Shown here piece after piece: positions 3,560 to 61,955 of a DNA stretch of 64,000 nucleotides (the stretch's first letter is position 1; every line of letters begins with the position of its first letter). Below the pieces are notes generated by a model. The model saw only the letters and a program-made list of their open reading frames with translations. It was not told the origin of the DNA and did not search any database. The DNA is from Aldersonia sp. NBC_00410 (GTDB lineage Bacteria; Actinomycetota; Actinomycetes; Mycobacteriales; Mycobacteriaceae): assembly GCF_026342035.1 (NCBI RefSeq), contig NZ_JAPENM010000011.1, positions 1 through 64,000 of the forward strand. Direction: 5' to 3'. Made by a program: the position numbers and the translations under genes.

Positions 3560-4369
3560 TCAGAACGGGCACCACCACGGCTTCTTGGACAGCTTCTCGA
3601 CCTGAGCTTCGAGCTCCTCGATCCGCTGCAGCGCGGCAGCGAGGCCATCCACGACGGTCCGGTTGTGTCCGTCGGCGTCGGTGCCCAGCTGCGGCCAGCC
3701 GTTCAGCCCGGGCCCGCGCAGTTGGGTTTGCACGTCGCGCAGGATCGCGTCCTGTTCGGGGGTCACATCGTCCTCCTCGGGTTGCCAATCCCATTGACCG
3801 AAGTCGACGGTGATCGCTTCGTTCACGTCGCAGACAACGCCGCCGACGATCACCTGCCGGAGCGTCTGATGGATGTTGCGCCGGGTCTCCACGTTCACCC
3901 CGGACCAGGCATCGGTCTGCCACACCCACGCGGCGGTGCCGTTGTCCAGCGCGCGGTTGACCGGCCAGTGCCCGCCGTAGATGCCCACGTTCTCCGCACC
4001 GAGCACGGTGGCGGCACCGCGCAGGTACGCATCGATCGGAACCTGATCGGCCGGGGTGGCGTCGAAGTCCGCCGAGAAGTAGATCGGCCGGTCCGCACGC
4101 CCACCGCACGCCAATACGTGGGCAAGTCCGGCGCGGGCGTCGGTGACGCCGGCGTCGTAGCCGTCCAGCATTCGGTTGGCCCACGTCTCCCAGTTCGAGA
4201 CGATCGAGATGTCGTGTGCGCGCAGGTCGGCCGCCTCGGCGGGGGTGAGCTGCTTGCCGGGCAGGCTGCTACCGCCGGGCGTGAGGTAGCGCACCACGAA
4301 GTCGAATCCGGCCGCCTTGATCGCTGCGCCGCCGGGCCGTCCACCTGCGTAGTCGAGGCCGAGGCGCAT
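3560..4369 (-). CDS. DUF1906 glycoside-hydrolase-like protein, lysin-like
   Basis: The 269-residue product begins MRLGLDYAGGRPGG. Residues 1-190 match the DUF1906 (Rv2525c-like) TIM-barrel: FDFVVRYLTP, SIVSNWETW, PIYFSADFDA, GIYGGHWPVN and AAWVWQTDAW are the recurring blocks. The same domain forms the catalytic or binding part of many actinophage endolysins. A short C-terminal coiled coil (RIEELEAQVEKLSKK) ends in a Trp/Cys cap. Unlike Rv2525c there is no Tat signal peptide if translation starts here. The start is supported by TACAGT 6 bases upstream (leaderless pattern). An upstream extension to 4504 looks non-coding. Peptidoglycan or arabinogalactan is the likely target, but this is inference. 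Confidence 0.8.
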   Translation of the reverse strand: MRLGLDYAGGRPGGAAIKAAGFDFVVRYLTPGGSSLPGKQLTPAEAADLRAHDISIVSNWETWANRMLDGYDAGVTDARAGLAHVLACGGRADRPIYFSADFDATPADQVPIDAYLRGAATVLGAENVGIYGGHWPVNRALDNGTAAWVWQTDAWSGVNVETRRNIHQTLRQVIVGGVVCDVNEAITVDFGQWDWQPEEDDVTPEQDAILRDVQTQLRGPGLNGWPQLGTDADGHNRTVVDGLAAALQRIEELEAQVEKLSKKPWWCPF

Positions 4370-4455
4370 GCCGTCACTGTAGCGATGTCCACGTGCCGGA
4401 TCGGTTCGCGGCAACGGTCGGGGCCCGACCCTGTGGTTGAATGGACATCGCTGTT

Positions 4456-4586
4456 GGAGGGGAGTACCCCACTCTGGCGGCCGCGTCGTCAACACGTCCG
4501 GCATCGTTGCCGGTCCGGTGCGGTCGGTTCGATGTGAGAATGTCGAACGGGGGAGACCTCCGGTATCGACGAATGTCTACCGGAGG
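4456..4586 (+). promoter_or_regulatory. Probable yybP-ykoY (Mn2+) riboswitch with RBS-sequestering hairpin
   Basis: Three blocks of the yybP-ykoY aptamer are present in order. GGAGG/GGAGTA (4456-4466) is the 5' P1 strand plus the conserved loop. TCGTCAACA (around 4486-4494) is the internal conserved element. GAGACCTCC (4553-4561) is the 3' loop and P1 strand. CCGGC-N6-GCCGG and GTTCGA...TCGAAC form internal hairpins. The 3' P1 strand is also the start of CCTCCGGTA (4557-4565), which can pair perfectly with TACCGGAGG (4578-4586), the ribosome-binding site of terC. Ligand-stabilised P1 would therefore free the RBS, giving a translational ON switch. This family is known to precede Mn exporters and TerC proteins. 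Confidence 0.8.
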
Positions 4587-4595
4587 CACACCTAT

Positions 4596-5594
4596 ATGCA
4601 CGTAACCACGCTCGAATGGATCGTCACCATCGTGGTGATCATCGGTCTGTTCGTATTCGACTTCTTCGCCCACGTCCGAAAACCCCACGAGCCGACGTTC
4701 CGCGAGTCCGCGTTCTGGTACTCCGTGTTCGTCGGCCTCGCGGTGCTGTTCGGCGTCTTCGTGATGCTGAAGTGGGACACGACCTACGGCGGCGAGTATT
4801 TCGCCGGCTACATCACCGAACTGGCGTTGTCGATGGACAACCTGTTCGTGTTCATCATCATCATGTCCTCCTTCGCCGTGCCGAGGCAGTACCAGCAGAA
4901 GGTGCTGTTGATCGGCATCGTGATGGCGTTGGTCATGCGCGGCATCTTCATCGCCGTCGGCGCGGCAGCGATCAACACTTTCGCCTGGGTCTTCTACCTG
5001 TTCGGCTTCTTCCTGGTCTACACGGCGTACAAGCTGATGAAAGACCACGGTCACGAAGAGGAAAGCGAGAAGAATCGCGACTCCAAGATCATTGCGACGG
5101 TCAAACGTTTCCTGCCGACAACCGAGGAATACGACGGCGACAAGCTGACCACCAAGATCGACGGCAAGCGGGTCGTGACGCCGCTGCTGCTCTGCTTGGT
5201 CGCGATCGGATTCACCGACCTGCTGTTCGCGCTCGACTCGATCCCCGCGATCTACGGCCTCACCAAGGAGCCGTACATCGTGTTCACGGCAAACGCCTTC
5301 GCGCTGATGGGTCTGCGGCAGCTGTACTTCCTGATCGGCGGGCTGCTCGAACGTCTGGTCTACCTGTCCTACGGTCTGGCCTTCATCCTGGCCTTCATCG
5401 GACTGAAGCTGATCCTGCACGCGCTGCACGAGAACACCCTGCCGTTCATCAACGGCGGCGAGCACGTGAACGTCCCCGAAGTGTCCACGGCGATGTCGCT
5501 CGGGGTGATCATCGCGACGCTTGTCGTGACGTCGGTGGCCAGCCTGCTGAAGACGCGCAGTCAGGATGCGGAGAAGCACACGGCCGACGATTAG
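4596..5594 (+). CDS. TerC/Alx-family membrane protein, probable Mn2+ exporter
   Basis: The 332-residue integral membrane protein has about 8-9 hydrophobic segments. It carries the TerC family motifs LSMDNLFVFIIIMSSF (about residues 79-94) and LFALDSIPAIY (about 211-221), whose acidic residues are thought to bind metal. TerC proteins are linked to tellurite resistance and, in the Alx/MntP context, to manganese export. The ATG at 4596 was chosen because GGAGG lies 9 bases upstream and family members begin with the first membrane helix. An ORF extending to 4437 would read through the riboswitch. The riboswitch points to manganese homeostasis rather than tellurite. Confidence 0.9.
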   Translation: MHVTTLEWIVTIVVIIGLFVFDFFAHVRKPHEPTFRESAFWYSVFVGLAVLFGVFVMLKWDTTYGGEYFAGYITELALSMDNLFVFIIIMSSFAVPRQYQQKVLLIGIVMALVMRGIFIAVGAAAINTFAWVFYLFGFFLVYTAYKLMKDHGHEEESEKNRDSKIIATVKRFLPTTEEYDGDKLTTKIDGKRVVTPLLLCLVAIGFTDLLFALDSIPAIYGLTKEPYIVFTANAFALMGLRQLYFLIGGLLERLVYLSYGLAFILAFIGLKLILHALHENTLPFINGGEHVNVPEVSTAMSLGVIIATLVVTSVASLLKTRSQDAEKHTADD

Positions 5595-60026: not shown

Positions 60027-60072
60027 CCTTCGCGGAGGTTGTTCGCGCCAGCCGGCGCGGCGCCGCAAGGTC

Positions 60073-60215
60073 ACCGCCTAATTGTGGCAAGCGATCCATT
60101 GGATTGCGCCACAAGCCGGGGACCCACATTCCCTGGGGTGAATCCCGCTGCCGAGTTGCGCGGCGGGTAGGGCCATCTTCCCGGCCCGAACCCGACAGCT
60201 AACTCGGTCGGCGGG
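60073..60215 (+). promoter_or_regulatory. ydaO-yuaA (c-di-AMP) riboswitch
   Basis: The invariant blocks of the ydaO family are present in order: CCGGGGACCCA (about 60116), TGGGGTGAATCC (about 60135), GGGTAGGGCCATCTTCC (about 60165) and GCCCGAACCCGACAGCTAAC (60184-60203). CCGCC (60074-60078) closes P1 with GGCGG (60210-60214). The switch controls resuscitation-promoting factor and NlpC cell-wall hydrolases in actinobacteria, usually turned off by c-di-AMP. Confidence 0.9.
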
Positions 60216-60242
60216 CAGTGGAAGAAACGGAGTACCCCTGTC

Positions 60243-60800
60243 GTGGCCACCCTCGAATCCAAGCGTTCCGTCCGTCGTGCCGCCGTCACCGGCGCCCTGG
60301 TGCTCGGTGCGATTGTCGCGCCCGCGGCCCCGGCGCTCGCCGCTCCGGTGTCCGTGCCCGGCGTCGGCACCTTCGACATCCCCGAAATCCCCGGTGTCGC
60401 ACTGCCGCCGTTGCCGGGTGCGCCCGCCGCGCCGGCACCGGCGCCTGCGCCGCAGCTGACCGCGGGTGACCGCGCCTTGCAGGCCGCCGAGTCCAAGATC
60501 GGCGCGCCCTACGTCTATGGTGCGGCCGGCCCCAACTCGTTCGACTGCTCGGGCCTCGTGCAGTGGGCCTACTCGCAGGCCGGCGTCAACGTGCCGCGCA
60601 CCAGCGAGGCGCAGCTCGGCGCAGGCACACCCGTCGCGATCTCCGACCTGCGTCCCGGTGACCTCGTGTCGTTCTACGGCGGCGGCCACTCCGGCCTGTA
60701 CGCGGGCAACGGCAATGTCGTGCACGCGTCCACCTCGGGCCAGCCGGTGAAGGTTGCGGCGCTGTCGTCGATGCCGGTCTCGGGCGCCCGCCGCTACTGA
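60243..60800 (+). CDS. Secreted NlpC/P60 peptidoglycan endopeptidase
   Basis: The 185-residue exported hydrolase has a signal peptide (about 1-34, ending ALAA), a Pro/Ala-rich linker (about 35-72) and an NlpC/P60 domain. Cys102 in FDCSGLVQWAY, His149 in GGGHSGLYAG and His161 form the catalytic triad. It cleaves stem-peptide D-Glu-meso-DAP bonds. GTG start with ACGGAG upstream, 27 bases after the riboswitch. It is the smaller of two adjacent NlpC genes. Confidence 0.92.
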   Translation: MATLESKRSVRRAAVTGALVLGAIVAPAAPALAAPVSVPGVGTFDIPEIPGVALPPLPGAPAAPAPAPAPQLTAGDRALQAAESKIGAPYVYGAAGPNSFDCSGLVQWAYSQAGVNVPRTSEAQLGAGTPVAISDLRPGDLVSFYGGGHSGLYAGNGNVVHASTSGQPVKVAALSSMPVSGARRY

Positions 60801-60842
60801 GTTCGACCGACGGTCCGGAGTGGACACGAAAGGTTGCCATTC

Positions 60843-60858
60843 CGTAATCTTTCCGAGA
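60843..60858 (+). promoter_or_regulatory. Shared motif upstream of the second NlpC gene
   Basis: CGTAATCTTTCCGAGA lies 20 bases before the ATG at 60879 and is the partner of the motif at 60011-60026. Position that close to the start suggests it may overlap a promoter or act in the leader. Confidence 0.45.
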
Positions 60859-60878
60859 TCAATCGGAGTCCGGAATCG

Positions 60879-61955
60879 ATGACGAACGGAAGTGCGACTC
60901 GCGTGGCCCCTCACCGCATCCGTCGGCCGGTGGTCGGCATCCTCGCGACGGGGCTGCTCGGACTGGGTCTCGCGATCGGCCCGAGTTCGGCCGGAGCAGA
61001 CCCCGTTGCGATCGGCAGCCCGAGCGAGGCGATGCAGCAGCTGTCCGATCTGTCGCGCCAGTCCGAGCAGACCAACGAGGCCGTACACCAGGTGCAGGCC
61101 GACCTCGACGGCAAGATGGCCGCCTTGCAGGCCGCACAGGACCAGCAGGCGCGCGACCAGGCCGCGCTGACCGAGGCCAAGTCGCGGATTGCCGGGTTGC
61201 AGCCGATGATCGACCGGGCCGCCGCAGCGTCCTACCGTGGTGCGCGCACCAACCCGCTGGTGTCGGTGCTGATGAGCGATTCGCCGCAACAGGTGCTCGA
61301 CCAGATGTCGGCCATCGACGTGATCTCCTCCGAGACCGGGGCAGAAACCACCGAATACAAAAACGCGATTGCCGCCGCCGCGGCCGCCGAGGACGCCTCG
61401 CGCAAATCGGCGGAGGTGGCGGGCAAGACGGCCGATCAGGCGCGCACCGACCGTGACACCCTCGCGGGCAAGCGCTCCTCGCTCGACGTCGAGATCGGCC
61501 GCGTCACCGAGGCGTGGGCGAAGATGTCCGGCCCCGAGCAGGCCGCGTACGCCGCGCAGGGCGTGCTGTCCGGCTTCAGCGTCGAAACGCTGTTGCGCGG
61601 ACTCACGCCCGGCAGCAATACCGGTGCACTGCAGGCCGCGCTCACCAGGGTCGGCGCTCCCTACGTCTGGGGCGCCACCGGCCCCGACTCGTTCGACTGC
61701 TCGGGTCTGGTCGTCTGGGCGTACAAGCAGATCGGCAAGCCGCTACCGCGCACCAGCCAGGCGCAAGCCAGCGCCGGTACCCCGGTCGGCCGCGACGAAC
61801 TGCAGCCCGGCGACATCGTGACCTTCTACTCCGACGCCTCACACGTCGGCATCTACGCCGGAAACGGACTGGTACTGCACGCCTCGACCTTCGGTGTGCC
61901 GGTCGGTGTCTCGCCCATGTCGCAGATGCCGTTCCACGATGCCCGCCGCGTCTGA
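60879..61955 (+). CDS. RipA-like NlpC/P60 endopeptidase with coiled-coil
   Basis: The 358-residue exported protein has a signal peptide (about 1-40) and a coiled-coil autoinhibitory region (about 48-205; QSEQTNEAVHQVQADLDGKM). The C-terminal NlpC/P60 domain (about 245-358) has Cys274 in FDCSGLVVWAYK and the downstream His of ASHVGIYAGNG. This architecture is that of RipA-type septal hydrolases (Rv1477/Rv2190c). It overlaps the next gene by 17 bases. Confidence 0.93.
   Translation: MTNGSATRVAPHRIRRPVVGILATGLLGLGLAIGPSSAGADPVAIGSPSEAMQQLSDLSRQSEQTNEAVHQVQADLDGKMAALQAAQDQQARDQAALTEAKSRIAGLQPMIDRAAAASYRGARTNPLVSVLMSDSPQQVLDQMSAIDVISSETGAETTEYKNAIAAAAAAEDASRKSAEVAGKTADQARTDRDTLAGKRSSLDVEIGRVTEAWAKMSGPEQAAYAAQGVLSGFSVETLLRGLTPGSNTGALQAALTRVGAPYVWGATGPDSFDCSGLVVWAYKQIGKPLPRTSQAQASAGTPVGRDELQPGDIVTFYSDASHVGIYAGNGLVLHASTFGVPVGVSPMSQMPFHDARRV

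Follow-up and report, generated by a model that had tools for sequence, protein, structure and literature searches.

Described manganese riboswitches and the terC locus of Aldersonia

The described systems closest to the leader considered here are found in Escherichia coli, where both Mn2+ and alkaline pH switch on reporters of alx and mntP and where, in the case of mntP, Mn2+ turns on translation initiation, as we propose below for the Aldersonia leader (both reported in PMC9603457). In Corynebacterium glutamicum, the leader of cg2157, which like ours precedes terC, was reported to score 49.1 bits with RF00080 in an older Rfam release and to be transcribed according to RNA-seq (PMC3890552); the current RF00080 gives no match in C. 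glutamicum among our control genomes, assuming that the same 14 controls were used throughout. The aptamers of Lactococcus lactis and Xanthomonas oryzae are described as four-way junctions that include a helix P2, and the X. oryzae platform works by transcription antitermination (PMC6754395), whereas the Aldersonia leader appears to have neither feature. Streptococcus pneumoniae mgtA shares a three-way junction with our leader but is controlled by transcription (PMC9495176, a review).

The window, i.e., the whole stretch of DNA analysed, comprises 64,000 nt of Aldersonia sp. NBC_00410 (positions 1 to 64,000 of contig NZ_JAPENM010000011.1); all features of the leader described below lie on its forward strand. 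The leader, of about 150 nt, is situated between a divergent gene for an Rv2525c-like glycoside hydrolase (from 4372, minus strand) and terC (4596..5594; ATG at 4596), which specifies a protein of 332 amino acids of the Alx subfamily. This protein matches PF03741 with 181.5 bits and TIGR03718 (R_switched_Alx) with 379.1 bits (cut-off 246.4), and is 86% identical to TerC of Aldersonia kunmingensis, the nearest named relative in the collection searched. The leader is thus positioned directly before a manganese homeostasis gene (TIGR03718 TerC/Alx), the product of which is a probable Mn2+ exporter. Literature searches returned no published experiments on the Aldersonia terC leader.

On the strength of the comparisons presented below, we consider it very probable that the terC leader belongs to the yybP-ykoY (Mn2+) riboswitches of the alx type and that its platform switches translation ON. 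It adds an ordinary further member to a class that is already known and for which a three-way junction has been described.

The leader in related genomes

TerC is present in 195 of the 201 genomes of the family. Ninety terC loci were read (L001-L090), the window being L001 and counted here as well as among the leaders; 69 of them carry a recognisable leader, and the motif is absent from the remaining 21. The leader is present at 24 of the 80 named terC loci, and Nocardia is in the title of none of these 24. Near-duplicate leaders were removed by eye before alignment. Alignment A1 holds 53 leaders with the window counted in; A2 combines 45 terC aptamers with four leaders from the RF00080 scan (L092, L093, L094 and L098), and A3 is made of the 45 terC leaders alone. 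The covariance models R1 and R2 were built from A2 (49 aptamers) and A3, respectively, with the window and its genus-mate L002 left out in both cases.

The window is matched by R1 (positions 4453-4563) with 100 bits and E 4.5e-24, and by R2 with 104 bits and E 8.3e-25. The terC leader is the sole strong R1 site in the genome, the next best scoring 22.9 bits (E 0.056). With the stricter filters that were used for all four scans of family and class genomes (R1 and RF00080), R1 matches occur in 179 of 201 family genomes (E<=0.01) and in 94 of 148 class genomes (E<=0.001).

The aptamer covaries strongly. Over the structure modelled in A2 (switch helix, P1.2, P3a, P3b and P4), 88.0% of the cells are paired and double changes occur at 24 of 30 pairs; none of 500 shuffles scored as high on any of five measures, and slid versions of the structure were 36-50% paired. 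A3 gave 89.8% paired cells and double changes at 23 of 30 pairs (0/500 shuffles), while the full alignment with the window included, in which the inner part of P4 is poorly aligned, gave 84.2% and 28 of 37 (0/500).

Architecture of the aptamer

The RNA would fold into a three-way junction composed of the switch helix, L1, P1.2, P3 with L3, and P4, P2 being absent. The first-pass annotation had recognised three conserved yybP-ykoY blocks in this leader, GGAGTA (4461-4466), TCGTCAACA (4486-4494) and GAGACCTCC (4553-4561), and all three are found exactly where it had placed them.

The switch helix (named P1 in the first-pass annotation and P1.1 in the crystal-structure papers) is formed by GGAGG at 4456..4460 and CCTCC at 4557-4561, and in the fold it can be extended by wobbles to nine pairs (4452-4460 with 4557-4565). 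In the 49 relatives of A2, 95.5% of its cells are paired; three of its five pairs never vary, and these three are therefore uninformative on covariation. Next to it lies L1, of which the 5′ side GGAGTA is invariant in both A2 and A3 and the 3′ side GAGA (4553..4556) is invariant in A2, as is the whole of GAGACC (4553-4558), into which the latter extends. P1.2 (CCCC, 4467..4470; GGGG, 4549..4552) is paired in 100% of the A2 cells, and its first pair is U-A in 44, G-C in four and C-G in one. It is followed by a single-stranded linker (4471..4477; 4-9 nt in the 49 A2 aptamers) at the place where four-way-junction members carry the hairpin P2.

In P3a (4478..4484 with 4520-4526), all seven pairs show double changes in the relatives (A2 and A3). 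The 5′ side of L3 (4485..4495), within which TCGTCAACA was read directly from the sequence, includes GUCAACA, the G, U, C and last A of which are invariant in A2. In the crystal structures, the metal-sensing adenosine of L3 is A41/A48, the counterpart of which would be among the adenosines of this block. The covarying P3b hairpin (4498..4513; 4498-4503 with 4508-4513) has double changes at seven of eight modelled pairs and 76.9% of its cells paired in A2, and the 3′ side of L3 (CCGG) together with the 3′ strand of P3a occupies 4515..4526, as judged from the R1 alignment and the covariation in A2. P4 (4527..4548) is a hairpin of nine pairs with a GAGA loop; double changes are seen in relatives at each of its outer six pairs (A2 and A3), and its inner part is not alignable. 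GAGACC is shared with the X. oryzae RNA, and the switch helix, L1, P1.2 and L3 are common to our leader and to the L. lactis and X. oryzae RNAs as described in PMC6754395.

Upstream of the aptamer, TTGAAT at 4437..4442 is a candidate -10 element, proposed from its recurrence by eye in relatives: TTGAAT or TTCAAT occurs 9-13 nt 5′ of the switch helix in 14 of 21 upstream stretches that were compared, the window included, out of 69. A consensus scan found no sigma-70 site ahead of the terC leader. With this spacing, the RNA would begin right at the aptamer, its start then lying near 4449-4450.

The reading frame of terC is open through the leader (ORF 4437-5594, from a TTG at 4437), so that TerC could in principle carry an N-terminal extension encoded by the leader. 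The aptamers of relatives vary in length, and not in threes, on which ground a coding extension was rejected; in addition, conservation is located in stems and loops, and a Shine-Dalgarno (SD) sequence and ATG are at hand at 4582-4598. We regard such an extension as having virtually no chance of being correct. A phage origin was likewise considered and rejected, there being no match in the phage collection.

Relation to the E. coli leaders and the blind spot of RF00080

In a search of 12.3 kb with filters off, the E. coli alx leader was found by R1 with 50.7 bits (E 6.5e-12) and by R2 with 48.4 bits (E 3.4e-11), while the mntP leader was matched weakly (R1, 22.9 bits, E 1.3e-4; R2, 15.9 bits, E 0.008). 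The suspicion that the R1 match to alx was owed to the four RF00080-derived members of A2 could be dismissed, since R2, built without them, still finds alx. That the same models cover both the window and the verified alx leader argues for homology to the yybP-ykoY class. The yybP-ykoY identity claimed in the first-pass annotation is consequently supported by the comparison, in which the R1 and R2 scores of window and alx, the covarying aptamer and the TIGR03718 assignment of the downstream gene point the same way.

The alx leader resembles that of the window in its L1 and L3 blocks, in its lack of P2 and in preceding the gene of a TerC-family Mn exporter; the alx alignment leaves some 5 nt between P1.2 and P3, which gives no room for P2. 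It differs in the distance between aptamer and start codon (81 nt in locus L295 versus 32 nt in the window) and in the sequence of its platform. The mntP leader, unlike that of the window, has room for what by eye is P2, its P1.2 and P3 lying 13 nt further apart, and serves an unrelated exporter family. As alx lacks P2 and mgtA is described as a three-way junction, P2 is not a defining element of the yybP-ykoY class; for the same reasons we rejected the idea that an architecture devoid of P2 is new.

The first-pass annotation had named the lack of an RF00080 hit, along with the lack of an Mn2+ response, as what would speak against its reading, and the former is what we found: RF00080 (Rfam 15; gathering cut-off 45 bits) has no match in the window at the cut-off, lax settings yield a sub-threshold match to 4447-4548 (14.7 bits; E 0.047 over all families), and there is no match in the whole genome at E<=0.001. 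Run in the same way, RF00080 gives the E. coli mntP leader 44.9 bits, marginally too few for the cut-off, and leaves the alx leader unlisted at E<=10. Because the verified alx and mntP leaders also fail the cut-off, the negative result is uninformative for the alx subtype, and the argument that there is no riboswitch here since RF00080 is negative was rejected. The RF00080 score is not valid as a defining feature of the alx-type subtype. The current RF00080 is blind to this subtype, E. coli alx included, which was one of the two less expected outcomes of this work.

At the cut-off, RF00080 matched none of the 201 family genomes and none of the 148 class genomes; six of the latter have matches at E<=0.001, and 33 of the former at E<=1. 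So far as the lists were compared, none of the family matches at E<=1 falls at a listed terC place. Of the ten loci inspected amongst L091-L102 (all but L096 and L100), L091-L094 and L098 possess leaders, and L095, L097, L099, L101 and L102 resemble chance matches. Annotation based on RF00080 would therefore under-report manganese riboswitches in these bacteria.

A shared arm predicted to hide the Shine-Dalgarno sequence

A nine-base arm, CCTCCGGTA (4557..4565), begins with the 3′ strand of the switch helix; it is the exact reverse complement of TACCGGAGG (4578..4586), the stretch that holds the SD sequence GGAGG (4582-4586), 9 nt before the ATG. The perfect complementarity claimed in the first-pass annotation is correct to the base, and so is its observation that the P1 strand and the anti-SD arm are in part the same: the arm contributes its first five, and up to all nine, bases to the switch helix or pairs with the SD side, and as 4557-4561 takes part in both the switch helix (4456-4460/4557-4561) and the anti-SD helix (4557-4565/4578-4586), the two are mutually exclusive. 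When 4458-4577 was shuffled 20000 times with its dinucleotides preserved, the exact nine-base complement reappeared in 11 shuffles, and 97 contained a complement to some 9-mer of 4575-4595. Of 200 shuffled versions of 4445-4605, one folded as well as the original (z -2.76).

Arm and SD are joined by seven or more contiguous pairs in 62 of the 69 leaders (window included); the remaining seven have GGAAG or GGAGT as their SD, so that the count of contiguous pairs ends early. A layout that the first-pass annotation held to be rarely visible thus recurs within the family. The minimum free energy structure pairs the SD core with the arm in 65 of the 69 leaders. In the 53 leaders of A1, 95.4% of the cells of the anti-SD helix are paired, versus 29-52% for slid versions, and one pair swaps U-A (24) for C-G (11). 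Double changes occur at two of eight pairs (shuffle mean 1.4; 199 of 500 shuffles as high); the near-constancy of the SD keeps this number from rising above that of shuffles. The anti-SD helix is therefore conserved, with only modest covariation.

An SD-sequestering hairpin of this kind, which appears in the free folds, could also act by itself as an RNA thermometer or an attenuated ribosome-binding site with no aptamer attached, a reading with which the negative RF00080 result would agree. It leaves unexplained some 100 nt of conserved, covarying aptamer upstream, with homology to alx, and is nearly excluded.

In the free fold of the window, the unpaired probability of the SD core is about 0; with the switch helix forced, it ranges from 0.06 to 0.92 per base (4581-4586). 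The opening is partial, with a mean of 0.51 over GGAGG in the window and a median of 0.27 over the 69 leaders, in 47 of which the rise exceeds 0.2. In free energy, the state in which the SD is hidden lies about 10 kcal/mol below the other in the window (median gap over the 69 leaders, 12.7 kcal/mol). The Kd of mntP is reported to be near 50 uM at pH 6.8 (PMC9603457), which corresponds to about 6 kcal/mol and is below the gap of about 10 kcal/mol; since the gap exceeds the energy of Mn2+ binding, switching would be kinetic, or else helped by some factor that was not modelled.

Taken together, the mutually exclusive and conserved anti-SD helix, the response of the SD in the folds, the lack of an intrinsic terminator-like site in 4350-4640 and the -10-like element support a translational ON switch. 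The translational platform proposed in the first-pass annotation is thereby supported, and its direction would be ON. At low Mn2+, the arm 4557-4565 would quit the switch helix and pair with 4578-4586, by which the SD would be hidden and little TerC made. At high Mn2+, docking of L1 and L3 would stabilise the switch helix while the RNA emerges; the helix would then already hold the arm when transcription reaches the SD side, leaving the SD open and allowing TerC to be made. The decision would fall while the RNA is being made, at the stage at which the aptamer is already complete but the SD side has yet to emerge. We infer Mn2+ as the ligand, the ON direction, the co-transcriptional control and the export role of TerC. 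The model predicts manganese-induced TerC in Aldersonia and its relatives, and it describes a compact translational manganese switch of which all parts can be read.

In a different arrangement, a Rho- or pause-dependent event in the leader would be primary and the hiding of the SD secondary, i.e., control would be transcriptional. A hidden SD leaves RNA untranslated and exposed, as would suit such an event, and Rho and a riboswitch of E. coli are reportedly the subject of one paper. The interval 4350-4640 has no intrinsic terminator-like site, and the preservation of an exact anti-SD helix by 62 of 69 leaders points to the SD as the target; we judge transcriptional control to be quite improbable and retain the translational switch.

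Genes under the leader

The genes downstream of 79 R1 loci, chosen non-randomly from the hit lists, were called by tblastn matches within each locus: 47 are TerC, 26 GDT1/MneA-like (seven of the latter being matched at only 30-34% identity: L173-L176, L195, L201 and L204) and six other, namely two P-type ATPases, two PGPGW proteins (PF09656) and two small proteins (64 and 59 aa). In Aldersonia sp. NBC_00410 itself, the GDT1 gene (contig C22 of genome G000) has no R1 leader in the locus sequence L297, the best site scoring 8.6 bits, and a search for MntP in this genome found none. In a relative without TerC (G001), a P2-bearing leader (L091:1507-1620) precedes an MntP-family gene, so that the family is not uniform in either its exporter type or the form of its leader.

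These downstream genes bear on what the aptamer senses. The same aptamer might respond mainly to a signal beyond Mn2+ alone, with alkaline pH or another divalent ion such as Ca2+ sharing control: E. coli alx answers both alkaline pH and Mn2+, most strongly when they are combined (PMC9603457), Ca2+ binding is reported for S. pneumoniae mgtA (PMC9495176, review), and the leader of the window is itself of the alx type by its R1 and R2 matches. R1-class leaders, on the other hand, are found before TerC and before GDT1/MneA, families that are unrelated but both linked to Mn export, and the P2-bearing leader of L091 precedes MntP; with all three under such leaders, Mn2+ is the common denominator. 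We hold shared control by pH or Ca2+ to be unlikely, if worth bearing in mind, and prefer Mn2+ as the ligand of the terC leader.

The two P-type ATPases, large proteins (about 1500 aa) in which the N-terminal part is long, are encoded directly 3′ of strong R1 leaders (L213:641-5254, plus strand; L214:1383-5897, minus strand) that score 88 and 82 bits and belong to two genomes of one genus; the one of the two that was scanned matched PF00122, PF00702 and PF00689. The 64-aa and 59-aa proteins (L177:967-1158, minus strand, and L186:209-385, plus strand, in genomes G252 and G323) likewise follow directly after the leader, have one hydrophobic stretch each (by eye) and are without a Pfam or NCBIfam match.

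PGPGW genes are located directly under the leader in L179 (170-580) and L210 (158-487), and those at L310, L312, L315 and L318 are leader-linked or behind terC in a like arrangement. A leader is present at six of 23 PGPGW loci: in two it is directly before the PGPGW gene, in three TerC lies between, and in one there is a distant TerC-like stretch. The 23 loci come from 29 genomes that had been chosen for their R1 hits, by which this fraction is biased upward. The location of the PGPGW genes suggests a role in manganese homeostasis. PGPGW proteins are little studied, their name occurring in a single paper of the literature searched, and we know of no link to manganese for the membrane proteins under the leader, be it PGPGW or the small proteins; their position is the other of the less expected outcomes. 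As a tentative proposal, which we rate at a little under even, the alx-type manganese riboswitch would be class-wide in this class of actinobacteria and overlooked by Rfam, with a regulon that extends beyond the known exporters: PGPGW and the membrane proteins of about 60 aa would be new manganese homeostasis proteins, PGPGW probably a partner of TerC.

Elsewhere in the window, a c-di-AMP riboswitch (RF00379) was matched at 60065-60229 with 82.9 bits. The two genes 3′ of it (60243-60800 and 60834-61955) resemble, by eye, those of NlpC/P60-type cell-wall hydrolases.
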